Of a stretch of 36,053 nt of DNA, positions 1 through 36,053 are shown piece after piece. The translations under genes were made by a program, and so were the position numbers. Position 1 is the stretch's first letter. Each line of letters opens with the position of its first letter. The notes beneath the pieces were generated by a model. It had not been told where the DNA came from, did no database searches, and worked only from the letters and a program-made list of their open reading frames with translations. The DNA comes from Sulfobacillus benefaciens. Lineage in GTDB: Bacteria; Bacillota; Sulfobacillia; Sulfobacillales; Sulfobacillaceae. The stretch spans positions 1-36,053 of the forward strand of contig PXYT01000038.1 of NCBI GenBank assembly GCA_003023725.1, read 5' to 3'.

Positions 1-21
1 CTACAATATTGGAGCATTGAT

Positions 22-98
22 CGGGGAGTAGCGCAGCTTGGTAGCGCGCCTGCTTCGGGAGCAGGAGGTCGCAGGTTCAAATCCTGTCTCTCCGACCA
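22..98 (+). tRNA. tRNA-Pro (anticodon CGG)
   Basis: A 77-nt cloverleaf with a 7-bp acceptor stem (CGGGGAG with CTCTCCG, one G-T pair), a D-arm, an anticodon stem CCTGC/GCAGG around loop TTCGGGA giving anticodon CGG, the T-arm motif GGTTCAAATCC and an encoded CCA end. The promoter lies mostly outside the window. Confidence 0.95.
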
Positions 99-566
99 TT
101 TCTATGCTCCAAAGACACCCATTGCCACTCTTTTTCATAATCCAAGTACCAATAATCCGCCAACAAGATGGGATTCCTACGACTGCGACAGCCTTTCCTC
201 TAAAGAATCATTTAGCCATAGTGAACTTTTCGTTCAGGGGGGCAACGCGAACAGACAACAGGCATTCAGCCCCAAAAAATCACAAGACGACCCGTAATTC
301 GGCCCCCGGCACGCAAATTGAGGTTTTCCAACCCTATGGGCAATTAAAGTGATTCTTCTCCTCGGATGGAGATTACCGGGAAAGAAGCCGGGAACACGAA
401 GCGCTCTCGGCCATGAAGTCCCCTGTTGGCTATTTCTCCCGCCTTACCGCAGAATCTATCCCACCAATGACAGGGCAGGGTTTGGCAACACCGGAGTGGA
501 TTGTTCAGGTATTATTTTTATAATTTAGATTGAAACGGGCATCAAAAAGTGAAGGAGAGTACTGTG
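99..566. other. Gene-free stretch after tRNA-Pro
   Basis: I see no convincing gene here. The only longer open frame runs out of the tRNA itself and lacks a ribosome binding site. An AT-rich patch near 510-530 could hold the promoter for the downstream NmrA-like gene, but I could not assign clear -35/-10 boxes. Confidence 0.5.
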
Positions 567-1590: not shown

Positions 1591-1972
1591 GAGGGCTGGG
1601 TAAGCCAGACATTTTGTACGGCCAGCACGAAGGAAGGACAACCTTGAACGTCACTACCGCAAGCCCGCCCCAAAAGCTTGAACCCTCAGTCTGAGCGGAT
1701 TTTCATAATGCGGTTCTCTGTCGAACACCTTCACCGTTCTTGATTTGATTACGAGATCATGTTTGTTGTCAACCGCATTCTTCTTTAACCCTGAATTCTT
1801 GCCACTGACCACGGCCAAACGAAATTCCACCATCCCCTGGACGCGATTCACCGGAAAGCAATTGCCGTGTGAATTCCTGTGCCGCTACCATGAATGTGGT
1901 TACAGTGTTTCCCAATCTGCTCTACAACAGGACCTTTACTCACAAAACCCAGGATGTGGGGGTATGAATGTC
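1591..1972. other. Intergenic region upstream of aceB
   Basis: About 380 bases between the NmrA-like gene and aceB. An in-frame extension of aceB upstream to 1745 exists but looks noncoding. The ace operon promoter should lie here; no confident boxes were found. Confidence 0.5.
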
Positions 1973-3571
1973 ATGAGCATTCGCGTTGTAGGACCCAAAA
2001 TACCGGGCGGAGAGCATGTGTTGACCGATGGTGCGCTGAACTTTTTGGAATCGCTGCATCATCAATTTGAATCGCAACGCCAGGCTTTACTGCAACGGCG
2101 TCAAGAAGTGCAGCAGCGCATCACGGAAGGGTGGAAACCATCATTCCGAGACGACACTCTCTCCATTCGGAGCAGTGAGTGGTCAGTGGGTGATATTCCT
2201 CCGGATCTTACGGACCGCCGAGTTGAAATTACCGGGCCCACCGACCGGAAGATGATGATAAACGCCCTCAATTCCGGAGCCAAGGTATTTATGGCCGATT
2301 TTGAGGATGCCAATAGCCCAACCTGGAGGAATATGGTTGAGGGACAGATAAACTTGACGGATGCCATTCATCGGGAAATTACGTTTCCTGCCCCCAGTGG
2401 CGGCCTTTATACACTCAAACCCGATATCGCCACACTGGTAGTTCGTCCCAGAGGATGGCATTTACCCGATCAACATCTTCTTGTTGACAATCAGCAGATG
2501 TCAGGTTCTTTGGTGGATTTTGGCCTTTATGTGTATCGCAACGCCCACGCACTTCTGGAACATGGCAGCGCCCCGTACTTTTATCTGCCCAAATTGGAAA
2601 ATATGGAAGAAGCTCTATTGTGGGAAAACGTGTTTTGTTTTGCAGAAGACGCGCTGAAACTCAAGCGAGGCACTATCAAGGCCACGGTTCTTGTTGAAAC
2701 GATTCTGGCGGCCTTTGAAATGGATGAGATTTTGTGGGCTCTCAGACCGCATATCGTGGGATTGAATGCCGGGCGGTGGGACTACCTCTTCAGTATCATC
2801 AAGAAATTTCGCAATGAGCCAGGTGTTTTGGCTTCCGATCGCCAACAAATTACTATGACAGTGCCGTTTATGCGTGCGTATACGCAGCTTTTGGTGAAAA
2901 CAGCCCATCGGCGCGGAGCATACGCCATAGGAGGAATGGCCGCGTTTATTCCGAGCCGTCGTGACCAGGATGTCAACCGTGTCGCTCTGGCCAAGGTCGC
3001 CGAAGACAAGGAACGAGAAGCTAATGATGGATTCGACGGAACATGGGTTGCTCATCCCGATTTGGTACCCGTAGCCAACGAGATTTTTACCCGGGTGCTG
3101 GGGCCCAGTAGTCATCAACGCCACCGTCTTCTTGAAGATGTCCATGTTCATGCTGAAGATTTGACAGATTTTCATGTTCCCCAGGGATCGATGACGGAGG
3201 ATGGATTGCGTAACAACATCGCGGTAGCCATTCAATATATTGCCTCGTGGCTCGGTGGAGCCGGTGCAGTCGCCCTCTACCATTTAATGGAGGACGCGGC
3301 TACCGCAGAGATAGCCAGGGCTCAAGTCTGGCAGTGGGTCAACTCCCAAGCAACGCTGGATTCGGGTACCCGTGCCAGTGCCGAATTCGTCGAGCAAATT
3401 ATCCGGGAGGGATTGGAAGAATGGCGTTCACTGTGGCCTATGGCCGATGAGTCCGTAGTCCTCTTTCGACAAGTAGCCTTGTCGAAAGAGTGGATTGACT
3501 TTCTGACACTTGCCGCCTATTCACGTCTTGTGGCAATGGAGCAAGATAGCGAAGGAGGACATCATTCATGA
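1973..3571 (+). CDS. aceB: Malate synthase A
   Basis: Condenses glyoxylate with acetyl-CoA to malate, the second step of the glyoxylate shunt, in the cytoplasm. From ATG 1973 the protein is 532 aa, the usual length of malate synthase A. Visible hallmarks are [13 protein letters not shown] (82-94), [20 protein letters not shown] (98-115+), the catalytic arginine in RPRGWH (159), metal-binding [12 protein letters not shown] (241-252) and [12 protein letters not shown] (263-274). An in-frame ATG at 1964 and a longer open frame back to 1745 exist. I chose 1973 because GGGGG at 1958-1962 is then about 10 bases upstream and the protein begins where the family begins. The stop overlaps the aceA start (ATGA), indicating translational coupling in one operon. 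Confidence 0.95.
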
Positions 3572-4857
3572 AAAGAAACGAGGAACACCATAATCTCCAG
3601 GAAATTTGGAACGGTACACGATATAAGGGAATAACACGCCCGTACTCGCCTGGCGATGTTCTGAGACTGCGCGGCTCAGTTTCCATTGAATATACCCTAG
3701 CCCGACGCGGTGCCGAACGGCTATGGACATTATTGCACGAACGTCCCTATGTTCCCGCCTTGGGAGCTTTAACTGGAAACCAGGCGGTTCAACAAGTCAA
3801 AGCCGGACTTGAAGCCATTTATCTCAGCGGTTGGCAGGTGGCGGCTGATGCCAACTTGGCGGGACAAACCTACCCGGACCAGTCTCTTTACCCGGTAAAC
3901 AGTGTGCCCGAAGTGGTTCGGCGGATCAATCGGGCACTTCAGCGCGCCGACCAAATCGACGTCCTGCAAGGTGGGCGTTCCACTGACTGGTTTGCCCCCA
4001 TCGTTGCGGATGCAGAAGCAGGGTTTGGCGGTCCCTTGAACGTCTTTGAACTGACCAAAGCTCTTATTGAAGCCGGAACTGCGGGCGTTCACCTCGAAGA
4101 CCAGTTATCGTCGGAAAAGAAATGCGGCCATATGGGAGGCAAAGTACTCATCCCGACTTCTTGGGCCATAAGAAATCTTGTGGCGGCTCGGTTAGCCATG
4201 GACGTGTTGGACGTCCCTACGATTTTAGTGGCTCGGACTGATGCGGCAGGGGCTCGGCTAATAACTTCGGACATTGATCCCCGCGACCAAGAATTTTTAA
4301 CGGGAGAACGCACGGAAGAAGGGTTCTACCGTATCAACAATGGCATTGAGCTAGCTATTCAACGCGGACTGGCATATGCCCCCTATGCCGACATGATCTG
4401 GTGTGAGACATCAGAGCCGGATTTGGATGAGGCACGCGAATTTGCCCGCGGCATTCATGAACAGTTTCCCGGGAAATTATTGGCCTACAACTGTTCTCCG
4501 TCATTCAACTGGCGTCGTCGCTGGGATGAGCAGGGGTTGGAGCGTTTCCAGGCAGACCTGGCCGACATGGGATACAAGTTCCAGTTTATCACTTTGGCTG
4601 GTTTCCACGCCTTGAACTTTAGCATGTTCCAACTGGCTGAACAATACCGCCAGAGTGGCATGAAGGCTTATGCCGATTTGCAGGATCAGGAATTCGATGC
4701 CGAATCCCGGGGTTATACCGCTGTACGCCACCAGCAGGAAGTGGGTGCCGGTTATTTCGATGAGGTTTCCCTGGTTATCGGCGGCGGTTCCTCATCAACC
4801 CAAGCCCTGATCGGATCCACGGAAGAAGCGCAGTTCGGAAATTCTGTGCGGACATAA
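3568..4857 (+). CDS. aceA: Isocitrate lyase
   Basis: Cleaves isocitrate to glyoxylate and succinate, the first glyoxylate-shunt step. The 429-aa product carries the family signature KKCGHMGGK at 184-192, with the catalytic cysteine at 186. Upstream are [25 protein letters not shown]-type substrate-binding sequence and DAEAGFGG (148-155). Length is normal for bacterial AceA. The ATG overlaps the aceB stop by 4 bases (ATGA), so the two are made together. A zinc-ribbon gene follows 21 bases after the stop and is probably the third gene of the operon. Together with aceB this gives net assimilation of acetyl-CoA. Confidence 0.97.
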
Positions 4858-4878
4858 AGACTCGTTAAGGAGGGAACA

Positions 4879-5061
4879 ATGATGATGCAATGTGTCAATT
4901 CCGGGATACATGGGGAGGACGGCGTTGTGGTCGACGTTTTTGGGTGCGCCTCATGCCAGACATTATGGTGCCCTCAATGTGGGCCCCATTCTGCCATCTG
5001 CCCTAAGTGCGGCAGCGAACAAATCGAACAAATGACTTTGAGTGATGACGCCTACCTTTAA
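4879..5061 (+). CDS. Small zinc-ribbon protein
   Basis: A 60-aa protein with three CxxC knuckles: CASC (23-26), CPQC (31-34) and CPKC (41-44). The last two look like a rubredoxin/zinc-ribbon fold. It has a perfect AAGGAGG ribosome binding site about 8 bases before the ATG (another ATG codon follows at once). It lies 21 bases behind aceA on the same strand, so it is probably the last gene of the ace operon. No catalytic domain is present; a metal-binding or protein-interaction role is inferred from the cysteines. I do not recognise a named family. Confidence 0.75.
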   Translation: MMMQCVNSGIHGEDGVVVDVFGCASCQTLWCPQCGPHSAICPKCGSEQIEQMTLSDDAYL

Positions 5062-5407
5062 AGCTCCTACAAGCTGAGTACAACACCGCGAAATCACCGC
5101 GTCATCCACTCTCAGGAAGAATTGCCCCGGGCCTCGGCGTTCGGGGCAATTGGCTGCCGCTTGGCCACTGATCAGGCACGGTGATAGGGGCGCCCGATCA
5201 AGACAATAATAAGCCGGATTCCCGGTTTTATTGATCCACAGCGTATCCTGGATAACCAAGCTGATCCGGTGCCTGACGCAAGAAGCGGTTTCCGAACTAT
5301 AGGTCCCGGTGCCATGGCCGATCCTTTCCCTGGTTGCTTGAGTGCGGCTACGACTATCTAAAACATCATATCCTTCTCGCTACAATATAAATATTCTCTT
5401 ATGATCT
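5062..5407. other. Intergenic region between ace and cbb operons
   Basis: I see no gene. The stretch contains the hairpin at 5121-5150 and then AT-rich sequence leading into the cbb promoter region. A 98-codon frame on the minus strand crosses it, but it lacks a ribosome binding site and overlaps the zinc-ribbon gene, so I treat it as chance. Confidence 0.5.
5121..5150. terminator. Hairpin, possible terminator of the ace operon
   Basis: A perfect 9-bp stem, ATTGCCCCG with CGGGGCAAT, around a 12-base loop, 60 bases after the zinc-ribbon stop codon. There is no T-run directly after it, so it may end transcription weakly or act as an mRNA 3' stabiliser. Confidence 0.45.
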
Positions 5408-5453
5408 TTTCACAGAATCCATATTTCACAAATACTGTCCATACCGCTATGCT
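5408..5453 (+). promoter_or_regulatory. Candidate cbb promoter with direct repeats
   Basis: TTTCACA occurs at 5408-5414 and again at 5424-5430, a 16-base period. The second copy overlaps a possible -35 box (TTCACA 5425-5430), followed 17 bases later by TATGCT (5448-5453). LysR-type regulators such as CbbR bind upstream of or overlapping the -35 box of cbb promoters, so the repeats are candidate operator half-sites. The assignment is by eye only. Confidence 0.35.
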
Positions 5454-5507
5454 TGATACGTAGACCTTTACCATCCAATTAGCAAGCGTCTAAATTTACT
5501 GAATTAA

Positions 5508-6977
<1,470 letters not shown>

Positions 6978-6996
6978 ATTAAGGAGGACATAACCG

Positions 6997-7425
6997 ATGG
7001 CTTTTCATCTGACCCAAGGCACGTTTTCATACCTGCCACCCTTGACCGATGACGAAATCAAGATGCAAATCGATTACGCTCTGAACCACAACTGGCCCCT
7101 GAGTGTAGAGTTCACCGACGATCCGCATCCGCGCAACACCTACTGGGAAATGTGGGGGTTGCCCATGTTCGACCAAAAAGATCCGGCGGCAATTCTGTAC
7201 GAAATCAACGAATGCCGGAAGGCGTATCCCAATCACTACATCCGGCTCAATGCCTACGATCCTTCCAGAGGACGGCAGACATTGGCTCTTTCGTTCATCG
7301 TCAACCGCCCGGCCAATGATCCCGGATTTCATCTCCATCGTCAAGAAGTTGCCGATCGGCAGATTCACTACACTCTTCACAGCTATGCGACCGATAAACC
7401 CAAAGGAGAGCGCTTTTCCGACTAA
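6997..7425 (+). CDS. cbbS: RuBisCO small subunit
   Basis: The small subunit caps the L8S8 holoenzyme. The 142-aa product has the family core: [14 protein letters not shown] at the N-terminus, [21 protein letters not shown] (50-60) and [12 protein letters not shown]-terminal extension after about residue 105 ([14 protein letters not shown] and beyond) matches the extra beta-hairpin that red-type small subunits carry. The AAGGAGG site sits 9 bases before the ATG. It is co-transcribed with cbbL and followed within 12 bases by a strong hairpin, so the cbb operon here consists of these two genes only. Confidence 0.96.
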
Positions 7426-18204: not shown

Positions 18205-18420
18205 CATCCTCCCCACGGCTGAAGCCGGGGGATTCCCGCGTCTCACGGCGTCGGGTTCCTGCTTCATCGCACCATTGCTTCTTAGGGCTTGCGCCGTTCG
18301 TCCACAAGAGGGTGCTCCCCAGGCTCACCGGGCGTGTCCCGCCCTGTCGGGTGCTTCGCAAAGGCGAAGCGTTTAATATTGTTCGCCGCTAGTACATCAC
18401 GGTCATGGTGGCGTCCGCAA
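18205..18420 (-). ncRNA. Predicted omega RNA (reRNA) at the tnpB 3' end
   Basis: TnpB guide RNAs are made from the 3' end of tnpB plus the right end of the element and run into flanking DNA. This stretch holds the end of tnpB and the GC-rich hairpin CCCCCGGCTTCAGCCGTGGGG near the tip. The flanking minus-strand bases after TCAA, TATGTCAAGCGGTTGT, would be the guide. Exact 5' end unknown; the position follows from known TnpB biology. Confidence 0.5.
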
Positions 18421-19439
18421 TTCGGACAATCCCACTGACTGTCGGCCAGCGTGAGATCGTGGTTGTAGTAGCCACAAAGGCAGACGCGCGAGGATGGCGC
18501 AAACCGTCCGATGACGCGCACATGCTTGCCATACCATTGAGCCTTATATTCCAGTTGGCGACGAAATTCCGCCCAACCGGACTGCGCAATCCGTCGGGCT
18601 AAGGCATGATTCCGCGCCATTCCGGCCACGTTCAGATCCTCGATGCAGACGGTATCAAACCGACGCACCAGGTCCGTACTCAGTTTGTGCAAGAAATTCT
18701 GTCGCCGGTTCGCCATCTGCTCATGCAATCGCGCAATTTTGTGGCGAATCTTCGTTCGATTCTTCGACCCTTTAGCCGTTTTGGCTAATCTCCGCTGGAG
18801 GATCTTCAGGCGATACAATTCGGATTCCAACCATTGGGGATGCCCACACTTTTCCCCGGTAGAAAGCACCAAGAAGTCGTGGAGTCCGAGGTCGCCACCT
18901 ACGGCACGTTCCCATGTTCCTGCTATTGCGTCAGGGACTTGGTTTTCGTCCTCAACGAGTACCGAGACAAAGAACTTGCCGGAGGGCACGCGACTGACGG
19001 TGACGGTTTTCACGGTGCCCGAAAAGCGGCGGCTGAATACGGCGCGAATCCATCCCGCCTTGGGCAAATAGATGACGCCGTTCTCCCAATGAATTTTGAC
19101 GCCTTGGGGATAGGTCGCGCTTTGCTTGCCGCGCTTCGACTTGAAGCGGGGATACCCTTTTTTCTCCCGAAAAAACCGCGTGAACGCTTTATCCAAATGC
19201 ACCAACGCTTGTTGCAAGGGTTGCGACGCCACTTCGCCCAACCACGGCAATTCCTGTTTGAGCGCGGTGAGACGTTTGTCTAACTGAAACCGCGTGATCC
19301 CCTGACCTTGCGTCTGGTAGGTCGTGGTCGCCAACGCTAACGCCCAATTGTAGACATACCGCACTGATCCAAACTGGCGGTTCAGGAAGACAGCTTGCTC
19401 GTCGGTTGGATAGAGACGATAGCGATAGGCTTTCAGCAT
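18282..19439 (-). CDS. tnpB: TnpB RNA-guided nuclease of an IS605-group element
   Basis: A 385-aa TnpB. The N-terminus MLKAYRYRLYPTDEQ is the family start. The RuvC-like site is complete: aspartate in GGDLGLHDF (about D182), glutamate in IEDLNVAGM (about E270) and aspartate in HDRDVLAANNI (about D346). The zinc ribbon reads SSRVCLCGYYN...WDCPNCG, so the first knuckle is CxC instead of the usual CxxC. TnpB cuts DNA next to a target-adjacent motif matching the element's insertion site, here predicted to be TTAC. No tnpA is present. The C-terminal codons overlap the predicted guide RNA. Confidence 0.93.
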   Translation of the reverse strand: MLKAYRYRLYPTDEQAVFLNRQFGSVRYVYNWALALATTTYQTQGQGITRFQLDKRLTALKQELPWLGEVASQPLQQALVHLDKAFTRFFREKKGYPRFKSKRGKQSATYPQGVKIHWENGVIYLPKAGWIRAVFSRRFSGTVKTVTVSRVPSGKFFVSVLVEDENQVPDAIAGTWERAVGGDLGLHDFLVLSTGEKCGHPQWLESELYRLKILQRRLAKTAKGSKNRTKIRHKIARLHEQMANRRQNFLHKLSTDLVRRFDTVCIEDLNVAGMARNHALARRIAQSGWAEFRRQLEYKAQWYGKHVRVIGRFAPSSRVCLCGYYNHDLTLADSQWDCPNCGRHHDRDVLAANNIKRFAFAKHPTGRDTPGEPGEHPLVDERRKP

Positions 19440-19614: not shown

Positions 19615-20055
19615 TTACCACTTTTTATATGGCAAAAATTTTCCATTCATCGTAACCACAACACGATCGCCAGCGGGATCCGTTTTCTTGTCAATGTCCA
19701 TGGTAAAGTCTATTGCGCTCATAATGCCATCTCCAAATTTCTCATGAATCAACTCTTTTATGGTGTCACCGTAAACCAATAGGATCTCGTACAGTCGATA
19801 AATAGTTGGGTCTTGGGGTATCACTTCGGAACGGCCACGGTAAGGAACCGTGGCGAGAATCTCTAGCTCTTCTTTTGGCAAGTCCATAATTTCAGCTAAT
19901 TTCTTAATATCGTCTTGTGAACATGTGGCCTGACCTAAACATGCAGCTGTGGTCCACACTTCCGATCGGCCAATGCTCTGAGCAATATCAGCCCACGTGA
20001 GTTTCAGGCGCAATTTGGCATCCAAAATTTTCCTTGTGGCCGCAGTCCGATCCAT
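19615..20055 (-). CDS. cynS: Cyanate lyase (cyanase)
   Basis: Decomposes cyanate with bicarbonate to ammonia and two CO2. From ATG 20055 the protein is 146 aa. The catalytic residues of E. coli cyanase (R96, E99, S122) correspond to R87, E90 and S113 in DPTIYRLYEI and GDGIMSAIDF. The N-terminal helical DNA-binding-like domain (KLTWADIAQSIGRSEVWTTAACLGQ) and C-terminal GDRVVVTMNGKFLPYK are intact. GAGAGGGG sits 8 bases before this ATG; a longer frame to 20106 is not supported by family length. No cynT (carbonic anhydrase) or cyanate transporter is beside it. The TnpB element lies directly behind. Confidence 0.95.
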   Translation of the reverse strand: MDRTAATRKILDAKLRLKLTWADIAQSIGRSEVWTTAACLGQATCSQDDIKKLAEIMDLPKEELEILATVPYRGRSEVIPQDPTIYRLYEILLVYGDTIKELIHEKFGDGIMSAIDFTMDIDKKTDPAGDRVVVTMNGKFLPYKKW

Positions 20056-20298
20056 TGGTTTAACCCCTCTCGATAAATTGATAAAGTGCTGAAATTCTTT
20101 TTTCAATCTCGTAAGTCCACCCCATTCATGGAATATGTGCCTGGATGACGTTCATGTTAAAGTTTTGGACATTTCCATTCATTAGGCCCAGTGACAAATC
20201 TTATGCAAGATCGAGATAAGGATATTTCTGTCCAGAGTTTCAAAAACCTGTTACAGCGTCTCTAGACTGAACCGAAGAACGCACCGACTCTTTGTAAC

Positions 20299-27540: not shown

Positions 27541-28185
27541 ACTACCTGAAACCGTGACGGCATCCATTATCCACTTGGCCGAAGACCAGGGGTAACTCAG
27601 CACGATTCAACGGCGGTTATCGTCGATCTCGGTGGCCCATAAAACGGCCAATATGCCGAGCCCACCCAGAGCGCTCAGGTGAGCATGGTATTGGCTGGCC
27701 TCCAGAAAACCTATGGGACCGCGCAACATCCGAAGAAAGCAGCGACCCTGGAAGACATTCGGCAGATGATCCACCAGATCCCCGCGAGTCGGTTAGGCAT
27801 TCGGGATCGACCCCTCTTGCTGATCGGTTTTGCTGGAGCTTTCCGCCGATCAGAATTGGCAGGCCTTCAGCGTGAAGATATTGAGATGACGCCAGATGGC
27901 CTGCGCGTGACCTTGCGGCGGTCCAAAACCGACCAAACCGGACAAGGGCGCGGGGGTGGGTATTCCTTACGGATCGCACCGGGAGACACGGGCATGGCAG
28001 GCAGGGAAAGCGGTCATGGACGCGAACGGCATAACCACAGGATTTGCGACCACGGCAGGACGGGCCCATGTCAGTGAACGGATGATCATGAAACAGACCG
28101 GACACAAGTCGACGGCGATGGTCCGCAAATACATTCAGGATGGTGCTTTGTTTGAGGACAATGCGGCTGCTGAAATTGGTCTCTG
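27541..28185 (+). pseudogene. Tyrosine recombinase/integrase, multiply broken
   Basis: A decayed phage-integrase-family gene. The N-terminal SAM-like part reads LPETVTASIIHLAEDQG, stop TAA (27593-27595), LSTIQRRLSSISVAHKTANMPSP. A shift near 27670 leads to the catalytic domain (RLGIRDRPLLLIGFAGAFRRSELAGL, with the first catalytic arginine). A further shift falls in GGGGG at about 27949-27953. The segment with the HxxR box (about 45 residues in relatives) is missing between ANGITTG and FATTAG. The end is preserved with GHKS and the nucleophile context MVRKYIQDGALF. It cannot be active. It marks a former mobile-element or phage site. Confidence 0.88.
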
Positions 28186-28218
28186 ATCAAAGAACTTCCC
28201 ATTGTAAGGAGGCTTTAA

Positions 28219-28440
28219 ATGTTTACGGAAGAATTTATCCAAGGGCTCCAGAATAGCCCTTTCATACAAAAAGTAGCCCGGCAGTATGATCAGTGTCCCA
28301 TCCCGGAAGACACAATTGATTTCATCTGTAAAACATTTGGCTTTCCACGTCCGATTCCGTATACGGATTACCCATGCGATGGCTGTGAGGCTTCGCACAT
28401 TCCCATCAGTTTGATGACACTAAATGCCAAGTGTGGGTAA
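28219..28440 (+). CDS. Hypothetical 73-aa protein with CxxC
   Basis: AAGGAGG lies 6-7 bases before ATG 28219. The 73-aa protein starts MFTEEFIQGLQNSPFIQKVA, has a possible metal- or disulfide-forming CDGC (53-56) and ends in a cysteine-glycine. I recognise no family. It follows the broken recombinase by 33 bases and may have travelled with it. The strong ribosome binding site and clean composition support a gene. Confidence 0.6.
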   Translation: MFTEEFIQGLQNSPFIQKVARQYDQCPIPEDTIDFICKTFGFPRPIPYTDYPCDGCEASHIPISLMTLNAKCG

Positions 28441-28540
28441 AGATCGATCCTCGCGCAAAACACAAGCAGCCTGCTCAATAGGGCAAGCCGGTTATACAAT
28501 CGTGGGGAGGCTCCGCTCATTTGTAACCTCCTAGAAAAGG

Positions 28541-28649
28541 GGTGAGAGCGGACGCCTATCATACGGACAGTCACCATCTCGCTACCTGGCGCCCTGGTGC
28601 TGTATTGCGAGTGGTGCTCTAAACGCCGGAAACGACCTGAGCTCTCACC
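28541..28649. repeat. 9-bp inverted repeat with 91-base loop
   Basis: GGTGAGAGC (28541-28549) and GCTCTCACC (28641-28649) are perfect complements. On the minus strand they lie just after the exported-protein gene ending at 28671, so they could form a 3' structure. There is no T-run. Confidence 0.4.
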
Positions 28650-28670
28650 GTCCCCCTGTTTGATAATGTC

Positions 28671-29174
28671 TCATGTCATCCCTACCCCATGCCTAATCAG
28701 TTTTTCGAAGGGTACAACTTGGATATCGGACATTTGTAAGGGATATCCAGGGGGAGGATCATCGTACGTCACGAGAAGTTTCAGCGATTTGTTTTGTTCT
28801 CTATAGTGTTCACCTATTAGATGTATAAAGGGTTGAACCGCATAATCATAGGTGGTTCGTGCGAGGGCCCACCATGCATGAAAATAATTCCACGCCACAT
28901 GGAATTCAGACTCTCCTTCGCTAGTTAGCGCGAATAAGGGGCGAAAGTACTGCGCAGGATCTGCTAAACATTTACCGTCTTGACGTGCATCCCCCAACTG
29001 TTCTATTGCTGACAGTTGTTCAGTCCAGACAGTGGCAAAGCGATGAATCAACTCGTCACCTGGCGAGAGGTTTGAGTTCGGACGACTGCTAACCTCAGCG
29101 CTTACTCTCCACACGTAAACAATGAAGTTCAGCCCAGCGAGGAAGGTTACTATGATCTTGGCAGTCCTCACCAT
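28671..29174 (-). CDS. Exported or membrane-anchored hypothetical protein
   Basis: A 167-aa protein with an N-terminal hydrophobic segment (KIIVTFLAGLNFIVYVWRVSA, about 5-25) that could be a signal peptide or anchor, followed by a soluble domain rich in aromatic residues (EFHVAWNYFHAWWALARTTYDYAVQPFIHLIGEHY). No catalytic motif is recognised. GGAGGAGG precedes ATG 29174. It starts 24 bases behind the stop of the frameshifted exported-protein gene, so the two probably formed one operon. Confidence 0.65.
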   Translation of the reverse strand: MVRTAKIIVTFLAGLNFIVYVWRVSAEVSSRPNSNLSPGDELIHRFATVWTEQLSAIEQLGDARQDGKCLADPAQYFRPLFALTSEGESEFHVAWNYFHAWWALARTTYDYAVQPFIHLIGEHYREQNKSLKLLVTYDDPPPGYPLQMSDIQVVPFEKLIRHGVGMT

Positions 29175-29197
29175 CACCCCTCCTCCATAATTTCATG

Positions 29198-29658
29198 TTA
29201 TTTAGCAAGGTACCATGATACCTCACAACCTGGCAACACCGTATCCTTGTCACCTATGATATCGGTAGCTGTGCCGTCTAGAGTGGCAGTGTAACTCAAT
29301 CCCGTCGTGAATCCTCCCATGCCAACATAACCCCCGACCATTCCATCAGGCTGTACGTTCCACGGTAACTTTTTTCGGTTGTGAGGACATTTAACCGTGC
29401 CACACTGCCCGCACCAGAGGTACTTGCCAACGAACTGAGTTTGGAATTGGAGTGAAATGCCATTCCACTCTGTGCCTGTAATGGATAAGATGTGTTTTTA
29501 ACGGATCCTGGTGTATAAGTTTTATCTACGTTGGTACGTACGAGTAATGAAGACATTCTCTGAGGAACCGTGGCCGCTAAAGTCACATTGGGCCACATCA
29601 TGGTTGTTCCCCACGCTATCATGCTGGCGACTGCCATGTTTGCGGATTTCTTTTTCAT
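29198..29658 (-). pseudogene. Exported protein interrupted by a frameshift
   Basis: The N-terminus MKKKSANMAVASMIAWG...TLAA is a classic signal peptide. The first frame runs to 29296, but from about 29350 the coding character moves to another frame, reading VGGYVGMGGFTTGLSYTATL and ending ...PGCEVSWYLAK at TAA 29198. One missing base in or near ATGGAATGG (29349-29357) would join them into about 153 residues. The end then lies 24 bases before the next gene, as in an operon. It is either a real frameshift or a sequencing error. Family not recognised; a secreted glycine/serine/threonine-rich protein. Confidence 0.6.
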
Positions 29659-29970
29659 AGCTTTTTAGCTCCCTTCCGAGTTCGCTGAAGACTTTGATGT
29701 AGCGCACCTTTGCTGAGCGCCAATGCCCAATTTACGATAAAGGCATGGTTCGTATGGGCTATCATCTCGTTTAACCACTTCATTATTTCTCGTCAGGGTT
29801 TACCATATCTCGACAATCCGTGGAAAACTTGCAATCTGTTCCATCATGGGACGGCTTTCATGATAACCCATTTTCTGCCATGTTTGCCAACTCGGAGGGA
29901 GTCTGTGGGGACCGGGAGACTCCTGTGGGTACTCGTCATAACGGCATAGTTGTGCGCTTGACCTTGGTTT
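29659..29970. other. Gene-free stretch
   Basis: About 310 bases upstream of the exported-protein gene. It holds a 7-bp hairpin GGAGTCT/AGACTCC near 29895-29920. No gene is supportable. Confidence 0.4.
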
Positions 29971-29973
29971 GAA

Positions 29974-30281
29974 GTCCCTAATTTCGGCTGGCAATTGCGC
30001 TGTTGCCGTCACGGTAGGGACTCGAAGCGAACCCGCAAACCCGTATTTTATGCGATTGTCCCATGGCTCTGCCGTGGGGGCGGGGGCAGATTCCCCTAAT
30101 CCTGCGTATTTTTGCTTTGGGCCTCGCCAACCCTGTTTCGGGGTTTTGAATCGCGTTAGACATCGTGTCCTGGCGAGTAGCTGGCCTACGGCCACGTCTA
30201 AGCCATCACTTCATGATGAAGAAGACGTAAACCGTAAACGGTCATAGCCATCACCGCTCTCTCCTCAATGATGGGCGGTGA
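29974..30281. ncRNA. Second inverted-repeat-rich stretch, possible structured RNA
   Basis: Paired elements in order: GTCCCTA/TAGGGAC (29974-29980 with 30015-30021) enclosing GGCAA/TTGCC (29990-30007); TGGCC/GGCCA (30182-30194); ACGTCT/AGACGT (30194-30228) enclosing CTTCAT/ATGAAG (30209-30221); TCACCGC/GCGGTGA (30251-30281). Frames run through it on both strands without ribosome binding sites. A plus-strand frame here contains LSHGS, which from memory recalls TnpB C-terminal tails. Strand and class are uncertain. Confidence 0.35.
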
Positions 30282-30446
30282 GAGGCATCGTCTGCTGCTT
30301 TTCCCGCACTTTAGGGCCTCGGAAAACTCGGAAGCCGGGATAGTTGCCAGTCTACTGCGTGAAACGAGAAATAGATCCTAGGATGTCGGTATCGTTGTTT
30401 TGACAATGCGTAGCCTTCATTTATTCCCCTTAGGTGTGGAGAAGAA
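30282..30446. other. Short gene-free stretch
   Basis: No gene or structure seen between the inverted-repeat stretch and the broken helix-turn-helix gene. Confidence 0.4.
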
Positions 30447-30782
30447 TTAAAGGGAATGCAATTCTTTGTTTAGCCATGCATTGAGCCCACGCACGACTTG
30501 TTCCGCTTCCTCGGGAGGCGAGGGGGTGACCCCATGATGATGAAACCATTCAATGCAGGTCCCCCGTGAAAGACCTACACGCTCTGCGACATCACTCACG
30601 GACAAGGGTTATGTTGCGTAGACAATGGAGACGGTATGTCTACGCAAGGTCTCAGGATCCCCCGTAATCAAAAGGCTCCGTGTGTCTTGTTCCGATAAAC
30701 CTGATAGCTGCCTTAACTCGTCAATGGTAGCGATTTGTTCTGGAGAAGACGCTACACGATCTAAGGCCACTACGTCAGACAC
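30447..30782 (-). pseudogene. Helix-turn-helix protein split by a stop codon
   Basis: A minus-strand frame from GTG 30782 reads MSDVVALDRVASSPEQIATI and on to SIVYAT, meets TAA (about 30609-30611), then continues in the same frame as PLSVSDVAERVGLSRGTCIE, a clear helix-turn-helix, and ends ...NAWLNKELHSL at 30447. One base change would restore about 111 residues. The open frame fuses upstream into the transposase remnant, so the true start is unknown. It may be a decayed regulator or resolvase-like tail; I do not recognise the family. Confidence 0.5.
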
Positions 30783-31400
30783 GCCAGCTGGAGTCCGAGC
30801 GGGTTGGTGGCTTGCCCGACGGCAATCGCTCTAAATCCACATCCGTCTTGACTTCGCTATGATACTGTTCCATCGTGCCATGATCCGGGTACCACGGAAG
30901 CACATCGTCCGGGGACGCGGTTTAGGACGTCCAGTACGCAGCGACTTCAATGTCCGGAATGAGTAAGATCTGCCCATCGACGGTCACGGTGCGTTCAATG
31001 ACTGGGTACACGCACTATTCCGGCGCGTGGCCGCGCCGGGGAGCTTCCTCAAGCGCGCCCCGATAGACCGTTTTCCCCTCGCGCGGCCGCTTGGTCCAGG
31101 TGTTGCCGTAGAGTCAACGAGGAGGGCAACTGGGGCAATGCCCAGACTCAAGCCGAAAAACGGATCCGCACGATACGCCTCAATATGGTCAAAGTCGCTT
31201 TTGCCTGGCGCCAAGAGCCCGATGTAGGCAGCCACCACGTCGCGATGGCCAATATCCGGGTGGAGATTCTCGGGGACACGGGTCCGATTTAACCGAGGAC
31301 CCACGGGCAATTGGTCGAAGAGTGTCCCGATTATCCCCAGGCCACCTTGGGCCGAGAGGACTTCATTGCCTTCTTCCCACACCACAATCGGTCGAACCAT
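30783..31400 (-). pseudogene. IS1380-family transposase remnant
   Basis: The first frame has LHPDIGHRDVVAAYIGLLAP, GKSDFDHIEAYRADPFF and LGIAPV, the conserved N-terminal part of IS1380 transposases. A shift then gives PSSLTLRQHLDQAA (the VPSxxTLRQRLD motif). Another shift gives EGKTVYRGALEEAPRRG, a stop, then VIERTVTVDGQILLIPDIEV and DHGTMEQYHSEVKTDVDLER, LPSGK, the C-terminal catalytic-glutamate region. The centre of the protein (about 250 residues) and the end are missing. No terminal inverted repeats were found. The element is dead. Confidence 0.85.
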
Positions 31401-32338
31401 TCCTTCACCCTCCGGGGCGGACTGCCAGTTCGCGTTTTCCCTTATTTTATGCCATAGGAGAAAGGTTGGTCAGGCTTTTATCACGGATTCAGGTACTAGC
31501 TAGAGGGCCGATCCCTGCTCTGTGTGAGAGTTTTCCAGAGTATACGGCTTACCCGCTTATCCGTCAGTACATTCTTAGGGATAAGGGATATTTATGCCAT
31601 GTTCTTCCTATCAACGCACATGCACCTTCGAGTAGAAGGGCATTCGGGACTTAAGGCAAGAAAGGGTCATTCATTGTCCTTCTCCGGAAGCTTGTGGATG
31701 AGGGGGTATACAATAGTGCAATACGTTCTTGTGGACTTGTTTCTGGCACCCCTTATTCCTAATCTTCATGATGATCCGTTTCCCAGCAAGGCTCATGACT
31801 TGAAGGACCGAACTTCGGGGTTCAAGTTTCAGAAGTTAGTCCGCTATACAGTAAGTCATTTGGACCGAGGAAAATACCTGCTGAGCACATGTATGCTATG
31901 GCCTAGCGGACTTGACACAAGCGTCCTACTCAAGGTTTTTGGCTCGAAGGAGGACGCTTGTGGGAATCTTTTCTCTTAACCGGGAATGTGCATCAACTCC
32001 GGTTTAAGAGCCATCATTCGCCTGGATACCCGGCTTGTGCAAATGAAATCGCCTCACGCTGCCGAGAACGTGCTTTTCACGGCATAATACAACTGATGAC
32101 AGTGTTTATCTAGCGGTCCTACGCCGCCGTTGGTTGAGCTTTCTACCAATCGGATATCATGCTGTAGGGCCGGGCATCGGGTGTATATCCTCGTTGTACA
32201 GCGTGTTTTAGCTGAAACATCCCTGCTTTAGCCCTGGAACCAACAGCAGGCAAGATGACGGATTGGTCATATGGCGCGTATGGGGTGCGGAAATGAAGAG
32301 TTTGGCCATTTTGACACAACCTGAAAACGTGAGCTTAA
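31401..32338. other. Long stretch without a recognisable gene
   Basis: A 151-codon plus-strand frame (31524-31979) covers part of it. It lacks a ribosome binding site and similarity, and its 3' end is occupied by the hairpin at 31916-31962. Otherwise I see nothing. Confidence 0.4.
31916..31962 (+). terminator. 12-bp hairpin, possible terminator
   Basis: CACAAGCGTCCT (31916-31927) and AGGACGCTTGTG (31951-31962) are perfect complements around a 23-base loop, followed by GGAATCTTTTCTCTT. The tail is only moderately T-rich and the loop is large. Confidence 0.4.
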
Positions 32339-33880
32339 TCACCCCTTGTTGTTGGCTTTCTTCAATCCCGCCCACTCCCCGGGAACTGCGGATTCAAATA
32401 TTTCTCGGTACAAATCCTCGCCATAGCTGGTTTCCAACGGTTCTCCCTCGATCAGTTTGAACGTGCGAGTTCCGTCTTGCTTCCTCTCTGCCCGCAAGAA
32501 GAGCTGGCTATCCAGTCTTCGGTCATAATACCCGCGAGCCAGGGTATAGGCATGAGTGACAAAGAACACGGTCACCTGCTGTTCCAGCAGGGCATCGATG
32601 ATTTGTCTCGCAATTTCTGATCCTTCCCGTTCATTAGTCGCGGCGAACGACTCGTTAAAGAGCACCAAAGAATGCATCCTAAGGCGGTCGGCTAACTGGC
32701 TCATCCTGTGCAGTTCTTCATCCAGTTTCCCATGGGTCATAGAAGCGTCTTCTTCACGCCGGTAGTGCGTAAACACACCGTAACAGACACTAGCCCGATA
32801 TTCTTCGGCGGGCACAAACATCCCGCACTGCATCATCAATTGGGATAAACCCACACTGCGCAAGAACGTTGATTTTCCGCCCTGATTGGCCCCGGTTATG
32901 AGCACAAGATTTTTTCCGTCTCCGTGAACCGTATTGCCGGTGATCGGAGCCGCGAGATTTAACGCCAGAGACACATCATATAAACCCCTACACGTGAAGT
33001 GTCTGGGACTAGGGCTCAAAGCCTCAGGAAAACAAATTGATGTTCCTTTCCGAACCAGTTCATCGCGTAAATTTATGCATCCCATGTAAAATGCCACTTC
33101 CGTTCGCATGCGCACAAAAAAACCCAGAACATGATCCACCGCCTGAGCCAAGGCATTCGCTACCAGGTTCGTGCCCTGATCCTGCAACTCGGCCAACGCT
33201 CTGAATCCCGCGTCATCACGCTCCGCAATCACAATCGTGTATCCAGGCTCAGCCTTCTGTGTCAGGCGCTGAAACCAGGATCGACTCTCCTGACGAGACT
33301 TGTGCAGAACATAGTGCACACCCTTATTGCCCTTGCCCAGTTGCGCACTGATGCGGATGCCGTGGCGAAATTGCAGTTCTTGCAGCTGATGTTCTACGTG
33401 CGCGAAATACTCTTCCCCCAAATCCTCATCAATCATGGCAAAAAATCGGTTAAACCCCGCCGAGACAAATAGGCGGCTATGGGCGACCGAAATTCGTTTA
33501 AGTTTTTTCAACAATTCAACAAAAATCTGCATCACTTTCAGCGATCGGCGCAAAATGGTGGTGGGTGAATGACTAAAGAGACCAAAATACTCCCGCTTCT
33601 CTCGTTCCATTGCTTCCACCGCGATGCCGTAGAGTTCGCGGACGACAGACGCATGGTTCAAGCAATCTCGCAGAATATCCTGGCGATAGCCTATTTCAGC
33701 CGGATCATTCAACATCTCTAAAGTCGCATGTCGTGCCACCTCCCGCACAAAGCCATCCCCCTGTGCCATCTGATTCCACACAGTGTCCAGTCCCAAATCC
33801 GAAGCCAGATCCTGATGATTTGGCGGCAACTCGCTTTCGTGATCAAAGTCCTTGTCGGCGTACATGAGCAAGACCTTCAT
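32339..33880 (-). CDS. MutS-like ATPase without mismatch-recognition domains (second of pair)
   Basis: A 513-aa protein. The C-terminal ATPase domain is of MutS domain V type: Walker A ITGANQGGKSTFLRS (328-342), a Walker B-like SLVLFNESFAATN (404-416) and the TH loop FFVTHAYTLA (439-448). The N-terminal 300 residues are helical lever/clamp-like with no mismatch-binding domain I (no FxE motif), as in short MutS-related proteins of unknown function. The usual Walker B Asp-Glu reads Asn-Glu here. ATG 33880 has AAAGGAG 8 bases upstream and overlaps the stop of the partner gene (ATGA). The pair is probably a heteromeric ATPase acting on DNA; that is inference. Confidence 0.85.
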   Translation of the reverse strand: MKVLLMYADKDFDHESELPPNHQDLASDLGLDTVWNQMAQGDGFVREVARHATLEMLNDPAEIGYRQDILRDCLNHASVVRELYGIAVEAMEREKREYFGLFSHSPTTILRRSLKVMQIFVELLKKLKRISVAHSRLFVSAGFNRFFAMIDEDLGEEYFAHVEHQLQELQFRHGIRISAQLGKGNKGVHYVLHKSRQESRSWFQRLTQKAEPGYTIVIAERDDAGFRALAELQDQGTNLVANALAQAVDHVLGFFVRMRTEVAFYMGCINLRDELVRKGTSICFPEALSPSPRHFTCRGLYDVSLALNLAAPITGNTVHGDGKNLVLITGANQGGKSTFLRSVGLSQLMMQCGMFVPAEEYRASVCYGVFTHYRREEDASMTHGKLDEELHRMSQLADRLRMHSLVLFNESFAATNEREGSEIARQIIDALLEQQVTVFFVTHAYTLARGYYDRRLDSQLFLRAERKQDGTRTFKLIEGEPLETSYGEDLYREIFESAVPGEWAGLKKANNKG

Positions 33881-35409
33881 ATGATTCGCTCCTTTAACCA
33901 CCTATACGTCACACGGTGTTTTTCGGCAATGGCCAAAGCATAAGCCAGCCCGTCCGCGGGTTTTCGCACGAGTTTGTAGGTGCGAAGGGCCGGTTGTTCG
34001 GGGACAACACTTCCCACCACACTCACGGTTTTGTCATTGAATGATGCCAATTCATCGATAAACGTGACCCACACGCATAAGGCATCCCGTTCCAGGATTT
34101 GCTGCAGAATCTTATAGCTTAAAAAACTGGCATCCTTAAGGCTGGTAGACGTAAAGATTTCGTTGAGAATGATCAGGCTGTCGCCGGTGGCTTCGGACAT
34201 GATATCTTTGATGCGGATGAGATCATCCTGCAATTTACCGCGAAGGCTCGCCGTGTTTTCTTCTTTTTCAAAGTGCGTCAGGATTTTATCACACAAAAAG
34301 AGACGCGCACTGTGTCCTGGCACGGGACACCCCAGACGCGCCAAATAATGGAGTTGGCCGACCATACGGGAAAAAGTGGTTTTCCCCCCTTGATTGGGCC
34401 CGGTTACAACCAATATGCGTTCCGAATCTTTGAGCAACACATCGTTGCACACCACAGATGCCTGTTCCTGGGTCAGCTTGGAGGCCAGAGCCAAGTCAAA
34501 TGCCTCCTGGACAGAAACCGCTTTACGCGAAGAGGACAAGTGGGGATAACAAAAAGGCAACCCCGCTTGCTTTAATGGCTCTATAAATTCCAGTGTCGCT
34601 AGATAGAATTGGATTTCACGGTCGAAGACGGCTAACGTCTCATCCATGTAGTCCGCATGATTAACACAGTAACGATCCACATTGCCAAAAACGTCAGGGA
34701 ACAGTTGAGCCACTCGTTCCAGAATCCGGCCTTCCAACTGGTTCATATCAGGACCTTGCGGAAACCGGACCAAGTAACTTTTGACGGCTCCTTGACTAAA
34801 TTTCTCGAAAGTTTGTCTGACTTCCTGGCTGTAATCCGGTTCTTCATGATAGGGCCGGACGTCGACGCGGTTACCTTTGATTCGCAAAGAATAACGAACT
34901 CGTGCCAATTCTTGTTTCATTCTGTGTGTATCTGAGCGCAGGGCCCGAAAGGAATCCGACCCGACATAGCCGTCAAGATATTGTTGAAAGAGGGCCAGTC
35001 CCCGAGCAGTGAATTGGCAGCTGGTTAAATCCTGGAGCAACTTAACCACCGCATCCCCGTATAACTCCACCGCATCCAAAAACCAGGCTTTCTGCTGATA
35101 GGGGTAATACATTTTGTCGAGTTGGGCCAAACGTTCCCGCATCGCCCGCATGGACTGGGCAAAAGAACGAAATACCCCAGCCAACTCCGGATTTTCCAAA
35201 TCTCGCATGATTTCCTGACGGTAACGCACGGGATCGACCTCGTTCAAAGGAGTATAAAAGACAGAATTCAAGTGATACGACGCTTTACGATCCGTTATGG
35301 CCTGAGTAATCTGGTCAAGATTTAGATCGGAAAAAAATTCCGGGGCTTGCAGAGGATCCGACGCGGGACGATCATAATTTTCCGGGTAGAGAATACTGAA
35401 TAAACTCAT
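33877..35409 (-). CDS. MutS-like ATPase without mismatch-recognition domains (first of pair)
   Basis: A 510-aa protein with the same layout as its neighbour. A helical N-terminal part (about 1-320) precedes an ABC-type MutS ATPase domain: VVTGPNQGGKTTFSR (334-348), Walker B-like SLIILNEIFTSTSLKDA (411-427) and WVTFIDELA. As in the partner, Asn replaces the usual Walker B Asp, so the change is probably a family trait rather than damage. There is no N-terminal mismatch-recognition domain and no Smr nuclease tail. ATG 35409 follows AGAGGTGA; the frame extends to 35454 without support. The stop overlaps the next start (ATGA), implying equal synthesis and a complex. Confidence 0.85.
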   Translation of the reverse strand: MSLFSILYPENYDRPASDPLQAPEFFSDLNLDQITQAITDRKASYHLNSVFYTPLNEVDPVRYRQEIMRDLENPELAGVFRSFAQSMRAMRERLAQLDKMYYPYQQKAWFLDAVELYGDAVVKLLQDLTSCQFTARGLALFQQYLDGYVGSDSFRALRSDTHRMKQELARVRYSLRIKGNRVDVRPYHEEPDYSQEVRQTFEKFSQGAVKSYLVRFPQGPDMNQLEGRILERVAQLFPDVFGNVDRYCVNHADYMDETLAVFDREIQFYLATLEFIEPLKQAGLPFCYPHLSSSRKAVSVQEAFDLALASKLTQEQASVVCNDVLLKDSERILVVTGPNQGGKTTFSRMVGQLHYLARLGCPVPGHSARLFLCDKILTHFEKEENTASLRGKLQDDLIRIKDIMSEATGDSLIILNEIFTSTSLKDASFLSYKILQQILERDALCVWVTFIDELASFNDKTVSVVGSVVPEQPALRTYKLVRKPADGLAYALAIAEKHRVTYRWLKERII

Positions 35410-35863
35410 AGAGCTTTCACCTCTAAAGCCATAAGGTGACAGCCCCGAGTCCATAAACTATGTCGCGCTATTTCAACCCAGGAATCACGTATCACACGAG
35501 CACCATTGTCCCAATCGGTGGTGAAAAATGAAAGTGCCACGAGCAAAAAAATATGGTGACACCTAGCCCTTGAAACAGCAACGCCGCGCTCTTGACTTAA
35601 TGAATAATACACGAACACCCACCCTTCCCTTTACCAAGTTTCGAGTAGGTGTTATTAGCATGGCCCCGAGCCTGCATTTTGATTGGATTCCGGTCAACAC
35701 CATGACCCTTCCACAGAACAGCAGCAAATCTCTGTGTTTATTATCTCAAAACTGCAGGTCTTTTGACAACTTACCATCATAGACTGAAGCATGTTCGACC
35801 ACATGGGTAAAGAGGTGCTAGCAGATGCCATCCTGCCGCTCTTACCCTTTCCCGTCATTAAAG
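35410..35863. other. Region upstream of the MutS-like pair
   Basis: About 450 bases. A 30-codon frame (35791-35883, MFDHMGKEVLADAILPLLPF...) may be part of the broken gene that follows. The promoter for the MutS-like pair should lie here on the minus strand; I could not assign boxes. Confidence 0.4.
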
Positions 35864-36053
35864 ATGTCGCACGCTTTATATGAAGAAGGAAGATACCATC
35901 TCACTAGTGAAGGATTTCACCTGATATCCACGCCATTCAACCCCCGTCGTCTATAACAAGGGTTCCAAGATGGCGGGCAAACGGCGCAAGAAGCCTATGA
36001 GCGTTTTGATCCCGGTTTGCATCTCCGGATCTTTGATCACGCGCAAAAGACTC
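35864..36053 (+). pseudogene. Broken gene running off the right edge
   Basis: One frame reads MSHALYEEGRYHLTSEGFHL, then TPFNPRRL, TAA (35954-35956), and continues without stops as QGFQDGGQTAQEAYERFDPG and on to the window edge. The composition on both sides of the stop looks coding. An overlapping frame upstream (35791-35883) could be its N-terminal part after a shift. Family not recognised. Confidence 0.3.

Follow-up and report, generated by a model that had tools for sequence, protein, structure and literature searches.

Two coupled MutS-like ATPases of Sulfobacillus benefaciens form an obligate gene pair that is very probably under fluoride control

Introduction

What might two adjacent genes for short MutS-like ATPases do in a genome that also encodes MutS1 (859 aa) and MutS2 (844 aa) in genes of their own? 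The two genes, A and B, lie in a contig of Sulfobacillus benefaciens (PXYT01000038.1) of which we analysed a stretch of 36,053 nucleotides, referred to below as the window. An initial annotation, made from the letters of the window, described the pair and left its role open, naming recombination control and defence as possibilities. We examined the domain content, predicted structure, leader, relatives and genomic neighbours of the pair, and we report that it constitutes a two-gene unit, distinct from MutS1 and MutS2, whose recurrent context is fluoride resistance.

Results

Domains, active sites and predicted structures

Both proteins belong to the MutS superfamily, with a MutS domain V ATPase in A (Pfam MutS_V, 76.5 bits) and in B (72.2 bits; cut-off 30.2). 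No further Pfam family was found above its own cut-off in A or B, the MutS_I mismatch-recognition domain had no match at E<=1, and there was no match to the Smr tail, both proteins stopping after domain V. The frame of gene A is open up to position 35454; ATG 35409 was chosen as the start for its GAGGTG ribosome site and because relatives keep it. Profile comparison revealed paralogy of A and B over nearly their full length (hhalign probability 99.9, 23% identity, 446 columns), including the N-terminal 300 residues. The Pfam and hhalign results thus bear out the earlier description of two intact paralogous proteins of ~510 aa that have neither a mismatch domain nor a nuclease tail.

Table 1. 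Features of the gene pair and its leader in the window (strand in brackets; motif numbers are residues of the protein).
Feature	Coordinates	Strand	Description
Gene A	35409..33877	(-)	510 aa, MutS-core ATPase
Gene A, regions		(-)	Lever, short beta-hairpin clamp tip, ATPase (AF2 model)
Gene A, motifs			Walker A GPNQGGKTT 337-345; Walker B N416-E417; H-loop TF (449-450), not TH
Gene B	33880..32339	(-)	513 aa, MutS-core ATPase
Gene B, motifs			Walker A GANQGGKST 330-338; Walker B N409-E410; H-loop TH (442-443)
Gene B, clamp region			Conserved LGKGNKG
ATGA stop/start overlap of A and B	33877..33880	(-)	ATG 33880-33878 over TGA 33879-33877
Sigma-70-type promoter-like site	35740..35769	(-)	TTGTCA-18-GATAAT; TG before second hexamer; 10/12 consensus matches
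Probable fluoride riboswitch aptamer, RF01734 (crcB motif)	35639..35716	(-)	Full length; pseudoknot GGUGUU/AACACC
11-bp hairpin	35614..35653	(-)	AACACCUACUC / GGGUGGGUGUU; shares the 3' pseudoknot strand of the aptamer; likely expression platform (off state)

The AF2 single-chain model of A (pLDDT 84) has an N-terminal part that corresponds to the lever of MutS, tipped by a short beta-hairpin, and it matched MutS, MSH and MutS2 chains with VIA Z scores of 22-31. The best superposition (Z 31.2, rmsd 3.5, 373 aligned, model positions 1..482) indicates a MutS-like overall fold. The single-chain model of B was weaker (pLDDT 69.7, best VIA Z 8.1), but its fold can be placed through the profile homology with A across those 446 columns. 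The clamp region of B is basic and Gly-rich, with a net charge of +4.2, a property that says little by itself about the substrate.

One scan of bacterial and archaeal genomes recovered 306 relatives of A, and the best 80 (about 50-76% identity) were taken for analysis. Going by the titles of their records, they include members of Bacillota, Chloroflexota, Proteobacteria, Spirochaetota and Campylobacterota, besides an archaeal MAG and further groups. Walker B is Asn-Glu in 80 out of 80 A sequences of this best-80 set, while in B the Asn was found in 74 out of 75 and the Glu in 75 out of 75 sequences; the exchange seen at first in the two window proteins therefore holds for the family. Every MutS1, MutS2 and KamC sequence compared with the pair has Asp-Glu at this place. 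The Asp-to-Asn exchange of the pair is the counterpart of the D693N mutation of E. coli MutS (structure 3k0s). The H-loop is Thr-Phe in all A sequences of the same best 80 of 306 relatives (80/80) and B retains Thr-His, so that the ATPase sites of A and B are not equivalent.

An obligate two-gene unit separate from MutS1, MutS2 and KamC

B lies directly 3' of A. The two genes overlapped in 77 of the 78 loci with both ends readable, at exactly -4 in 70 of them, and the distance matrices of A and B were correlated (r = 0.93, a value reached in 0 of 1000 permutations). In the domain V tree, A+B were split from MutS1, MutS2 and KamC with a support of 0.999 (B alone had only 0.485), and KamC clustered with MutS2, apart from A+B. 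Coupling, correlated distances and the A+B clade together indicate that A and B are old sister paralogs that were inherited together, and not copies of the resident MutS1 or MutS2. The pair is real, not a product of chance, and an obligate two-gene unit.

The model scores agree with the tree. A and B reached 63-81 bits with the MutS1 models TIGR01070 and NF003810 (cut-offs 641.7 and 480), about 70 bits with the MutS2 model TIGR01069 (cut-off 400) and 57-74 bits with the KamC model NF052383 (cut-off 300); a place beside KamB or aminomutase genes was not found for the pair. An ordinary mutS or mutS2 copy was rejected on domain content, scores and tree. Membership among KamBC-type cobalamin enzyme reactivases, suggested by the sub-threshold NCBIfam hit, was likewise rejected, given the Asp-Glu of KamC, an unrelated KamB and the other clade.

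These results touch several points of the initial annotation. It had proposed a survey of adjacency, with genes commonly apart or divergent copies of a known mutS or mutS2 as outcomes that would tell against it; the genes were found together, and they are not such copies. Its reading of the ATGA overlap as a sign of a translationally coupled heteromer is probably right. Domain searches and the neighbour survey of the relatives also agreed that a mutL-like or nuclease partner is absent.

Within the phylum the unit is rare and patchy: of 148 further genomes sampled there, 4 have it, as do about half of the congeners, compared with MutS1 in 26 out of 26 relatives. Some genomes, G145 among them (e.g. 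at locus L136), hold several copies of the pair, and at locus L025 two tandem pairs are followed by crcB. In a phage collection we found distant matches only, one of them near full length at 28% identity.

A probable fluoride riboswitch in the leader

The leader of gene A (35410-35769) lies outside the interval described in the initial annotation. It contains, in this order, a promoter-like site, an aptamer and a sequestering hairpin (Table 1). The promoter-like site, defined by consensus match only, is the sole one found in 32200-36053 and is placed 23 nt 5' of the aptamer; its GAGATAAT block is kept in the two closest relatives (L005 and L054). The aptamer, 230-307 nt upstream of gene A, was the one match of the Rfam leader scan (27.7 bits, E 1.9e-5) and does not reach the gathering cut-off of 34; when the window site was kept out of model building, it scored 21.8 bits. 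The same 11-bp hairpin is present in both closest relatives, in which the aptamer-hairpin block is near-invariant and divergence is seen in the 200 nt that follow, up to the start codon. No canonical U-run follows the hairpin in the window leader. All 12 loci examined from the nearest relatives have an RF01734 match 5' of A on the right strand, 4 of the 12 at or above the gathering score.

The promoter-like site, the switch-like hairpin, the conservation of the leader and the 12 out of 12 nearest relatives make the window aptamer convincing; its score below the gathering cut-off is the reason to term it a probable divergent member of RF01734. We thus regard the leader element as a probable, divergent fluoride riboswitch.

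Fluoride aptamers and fluoride genes around the relatives

Aptamers were surveyed with our own scan model, built from six training loci without the window site. Among the best 80 of the 306 relatives, 47 loci had an aptamer less than 500 nt 5' of A on the right strand, against about 1.5 expected from the aptamer density elsewhere within the same loci. With the training loci left out and at >=25 bits, an aptamer was present in 36 out of 74 loci. Of those best 80 loci, 70 had an aptamer, a core fluoride gene or both, and 10 had neither in the flanks examined. Genes for crcB, enolase, DUF190, UspA, antiporter, phosphoglycerate mutase (PGM) or pyrophosphatase (PPase) were present in 44 of the 80.

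By number of loci, the neighbours were a dynamin-like GTPase (28), an MFS transporter (25), enolase (23) and a cation/proton antiporter (13); CrcB was a neighbour in 12 of the 80 loci, with 6 more in a second cluster. Further recurrent neighbours were UspA, DUF190, phosphoglycerate mutase, hydrogenase subunits and pyrophosphatase. The dynamin-family GTPase (about 560-630 aa; L055:6317-8017, also L076 and L063) is thus the commonest neighbour, above crcB, and its L055 copy has a Cys-rich C-terminal part. The MFS transporter often directly adjoins the pair (e.g. L065:11083-12294) and is also found on Rhodococcus, Rubrobacter and Burkholderia plasmids. Some small proteins recur in the islands (L060:3575-3943, L061:3624-4070, L047:9333-9767, L027:7354-7791); three of the four had no Pfam hit, and the fourth is a zinc-ribbon and HEAT protein.

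The pair is also carried on plasmids. On a conjugative Klebsiella plasmid, a 59.4-bit riboswitch is followed by antiporter-uspA-A-B, with crcB, gpm, eno, uspA, a DHHA2-domain protein (ppaC type) and a CLC channel adjoining. A Burkholderia plasmid has a 57.4-bit aptamer 136 nt 5' of A in a fluoride-resistance island, and a Rhodococcus plasmid has a comparable island with the pair. Linkage to fluoride aptamers and to crcB, eno and PPase genes therefore recurs in independent lineages. In the annotation of plasmid NZ_CP018696.1 (149263-152318), A and B are both named 'DNA mismatch repair protein MutS', a label that is likely a misannotation on the plasmid copies.

In the host genome, other fluoride aptamers accompany hydrogenase/formate-hydrogenlyase-like clusters and a DUF190 gene (contigs C46, locus L093, and C134, locus L094), and two adjacent crcB genes lie on a contig other than that of the window. 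The window (18282-19439 and 27617-31400) also holds a TnpB/OrfB-like transposon protein, and integrase- and transposase-like remnants that separate the pair from the rest. Judged from translations only, malate synthase- and isocitrate lyase-like genes adjoin RuBisCO large and small subunit-like genes, with a cyanase-like gene (1745-7425 and 19615-20106).

Taken with the leader, this context makes it very probable that the pair is under fluoride regulation. The role that had been left open is thereby narrowed as to its inducer, indicated to be fluoride by the riboswitch and the fluoride genes.

Discussion

We propose, with a rough probability of 0.6 and from sequence evidence, that the pair forms an accessory module of fluoride resistance, namely a fluoride-induced heterodimeric ATP-gated clamp that does not serve mismatch repair. 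A place behind a fluoride-sensing RNA makes it most likely that the pair aids survival of fluoride and not the correction of replication errors. Its induction is read from the anatomy of the leader: fluoride would stabilise the aptamer and prevent the sequestering hairpin, so that the pair is switched on. The obligate coupling, the paralogy and the precedent of MSH-type proteins point to A and B acting as a heterodimer, which we consider probable. This would be an asymmetric MutS-core dimer with lever arms, clamp tips and composite ATPase sites that have Asn for the Walker B Asp, and by homology it would close round a macromolecular substrate in an ATP-dependent manner.

That this substrate is nucleic acid or the ribosome has, in our view, slightly under an even chance; a nucleic acid or ribonucleoprotein is favoured by the conserved lever and clamp and by the basic, Gly-rich clamp region of B. 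It could be a stalled ribosome or a DNA or RNA junction that arises when fluoride inhibits Mg-dependent enzymes, e.g. pyrophosphatase and enolase, and that the dimer would stabilise or dislodge in a mode closer to that of MutS2 than to that of MutS. As a speculation, the Asp-to-Asn exchange may weaken Mg coordination and shield the ATPase from Mg-fluoride trapping. A stronger version, which we think rather doubtful, is a dedicated fluoride-damage machine whose Asn-Glu sites would resist such trapping and which would spend ATP on releasing fluoride-locked enzymes, or ribosomes and polymerases that have stalled.

Known systems resemble the pair in part. The MutS2 core (Thermus 7vuf/7vuk, Thermotoga 9kce, Bacillus 7qv3) likewise combines lever, clamp and ATPase and has no mismatch domain, and A superposes on it at Z about 25-28; the pair differs in its two paralogous subunits, the lack of an SMR/KOW tail, the Asn-Glu Walker B, its own clade and the fluoride link. 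MutS and MSH2-MSH3 or MSH2-MSH6 share the domain V ATPase, and the MSH proteins are paralog heterodimers with unequal sites, whereas the pair has no domain I or II, no MutL, Asn-Glu and another context. KamC (NF052383, lysine 5,6-aminomutase reactivase ATPase) is likewise a MutS core of about 500 aa annotated outside mismatch repair, but it is a single MutS-like subunit with Asp-Glu in an aminomutase operon.

The alternative that survives best, itself unlikely, is a KamC-like reactivase, in which the A-B dimer would use ATP to pry Mg-fluoride-phosphate off locked Mg enzymes (enolase, pyrophosphatase), the Asn of Walker B sparing the pair's own site from fluoride trapping. It is kept alive by the frequent enolase and pyrophosphatase neighbours, since enolase, in its 23 of the 80 loci, at times stands directly beside the pair, and PPase and PGM occur too; Asn-Glu is diagnostic of the A/B family, and among the sub-threshold NCBIfam hits of B, that to KamC ranks first (73.7 bits). 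Most loci, however, have no adjacent enolase, and KamC itself has Asp-Glu, groups with MutS2 and not with A+B, has in KamB a neighbour that is no MutS paralog, and is known here as a reactivase from its family name alone.

A little less probable still is DNA repair or anti-recombination proper, in which the pair would mend DNA damage from fluoride stress. In the portion of Weinberg et al. 2010 considered here (PMC2864571), 'mutS' is named, as a DNA repair gene, among those that follow the crcB RNA, and a DNA-damage response is guessed; that 'mutS' is very probably of the same family, of which the paired structure, the Asn-Glu signature and the islands are undescribed in that portion. A 2020 review repeated 'DNA repair proteins' and cautioned about misannotation in the fluoride regulon, and a 2024 review of fluoride resistance leaves MutS unmentioned. 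The MutS-core fold with lever and clamp would suit such a role, but A and B are without a mismatch or connector domain and without a MutL, nuclease or SMR partner, and the genome has its own MutS1 and MutS2.

That the window aptamer is a chance match or decayed, leaving the local copy without fluoride control, is very improbable. The site scores below the gathering cut-off and was missing from the first listing of the genome search; yet the match is full-length with a paired pseudoknot, it is near-identical and in the same place in two congeners with a diverged leader around it, and relatives score above the Rfam cut-off. Anti-phage defence or recombination control with no fluoride link, of the kind that the initial annotation named as possible, fits the patchy, mobile distribution but is the most improbable of all, as PADLOC gave weak P-loop similarity only (best E about 0.003), neither PADLOC nor the neighbours of relatives placed the pair in a known defence family or a defence island, and the neighbours are fluoride genes with a fluoride aptamer 5' of most copies.

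The fluoride-induced clamp would be an accessory. Weighing against the proposal are the window aptamer's score under the Rfam cut-off, the missing U-run after its hairpin, the 10 loci with neither aptamer nor core fluoride gene, and the case of a known operon. The six-gene fluoride operon of Enterobacter cloacae FRM confers very high resistance, and its island table has no mutS-like gene (PMC5533749), so the pair is non-essential for resistance; the Klebsiella plasmid island has nearly the same gene set as this operon, which lacks the pair. We found no functional study of the pair in the literature searched. As far as these tools reach, what is new is that the two subunits make up an obligate family which has a signature of its own, differs from MutS1, MutS2 and KamC, and is carried in mobile fluoride islands.

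Cells are known to respond to fluoride by export, by balancing protons and ions, and by overproducing the inhibited enzymes. If true, a MutS-like heterodimer induced by fluoride would be a separate layer beside these responses, and the fluoride-damage version, if true, would amount to a way of repairing fluoride poisoning, apart from export, pH control and enzyme overproduction. The pair represents a branch of the MutS superfamily outside mismatch repair in which the Walker B Asp-to-Asn change is fixed in both subunits. 'MutS' genes of this kind in public annotation, including those carried by conjugative Klebsiella plasmids, seem to serve in fluoride stress, and the substrate of the pair, if found, would show what fluoride damages in cells.
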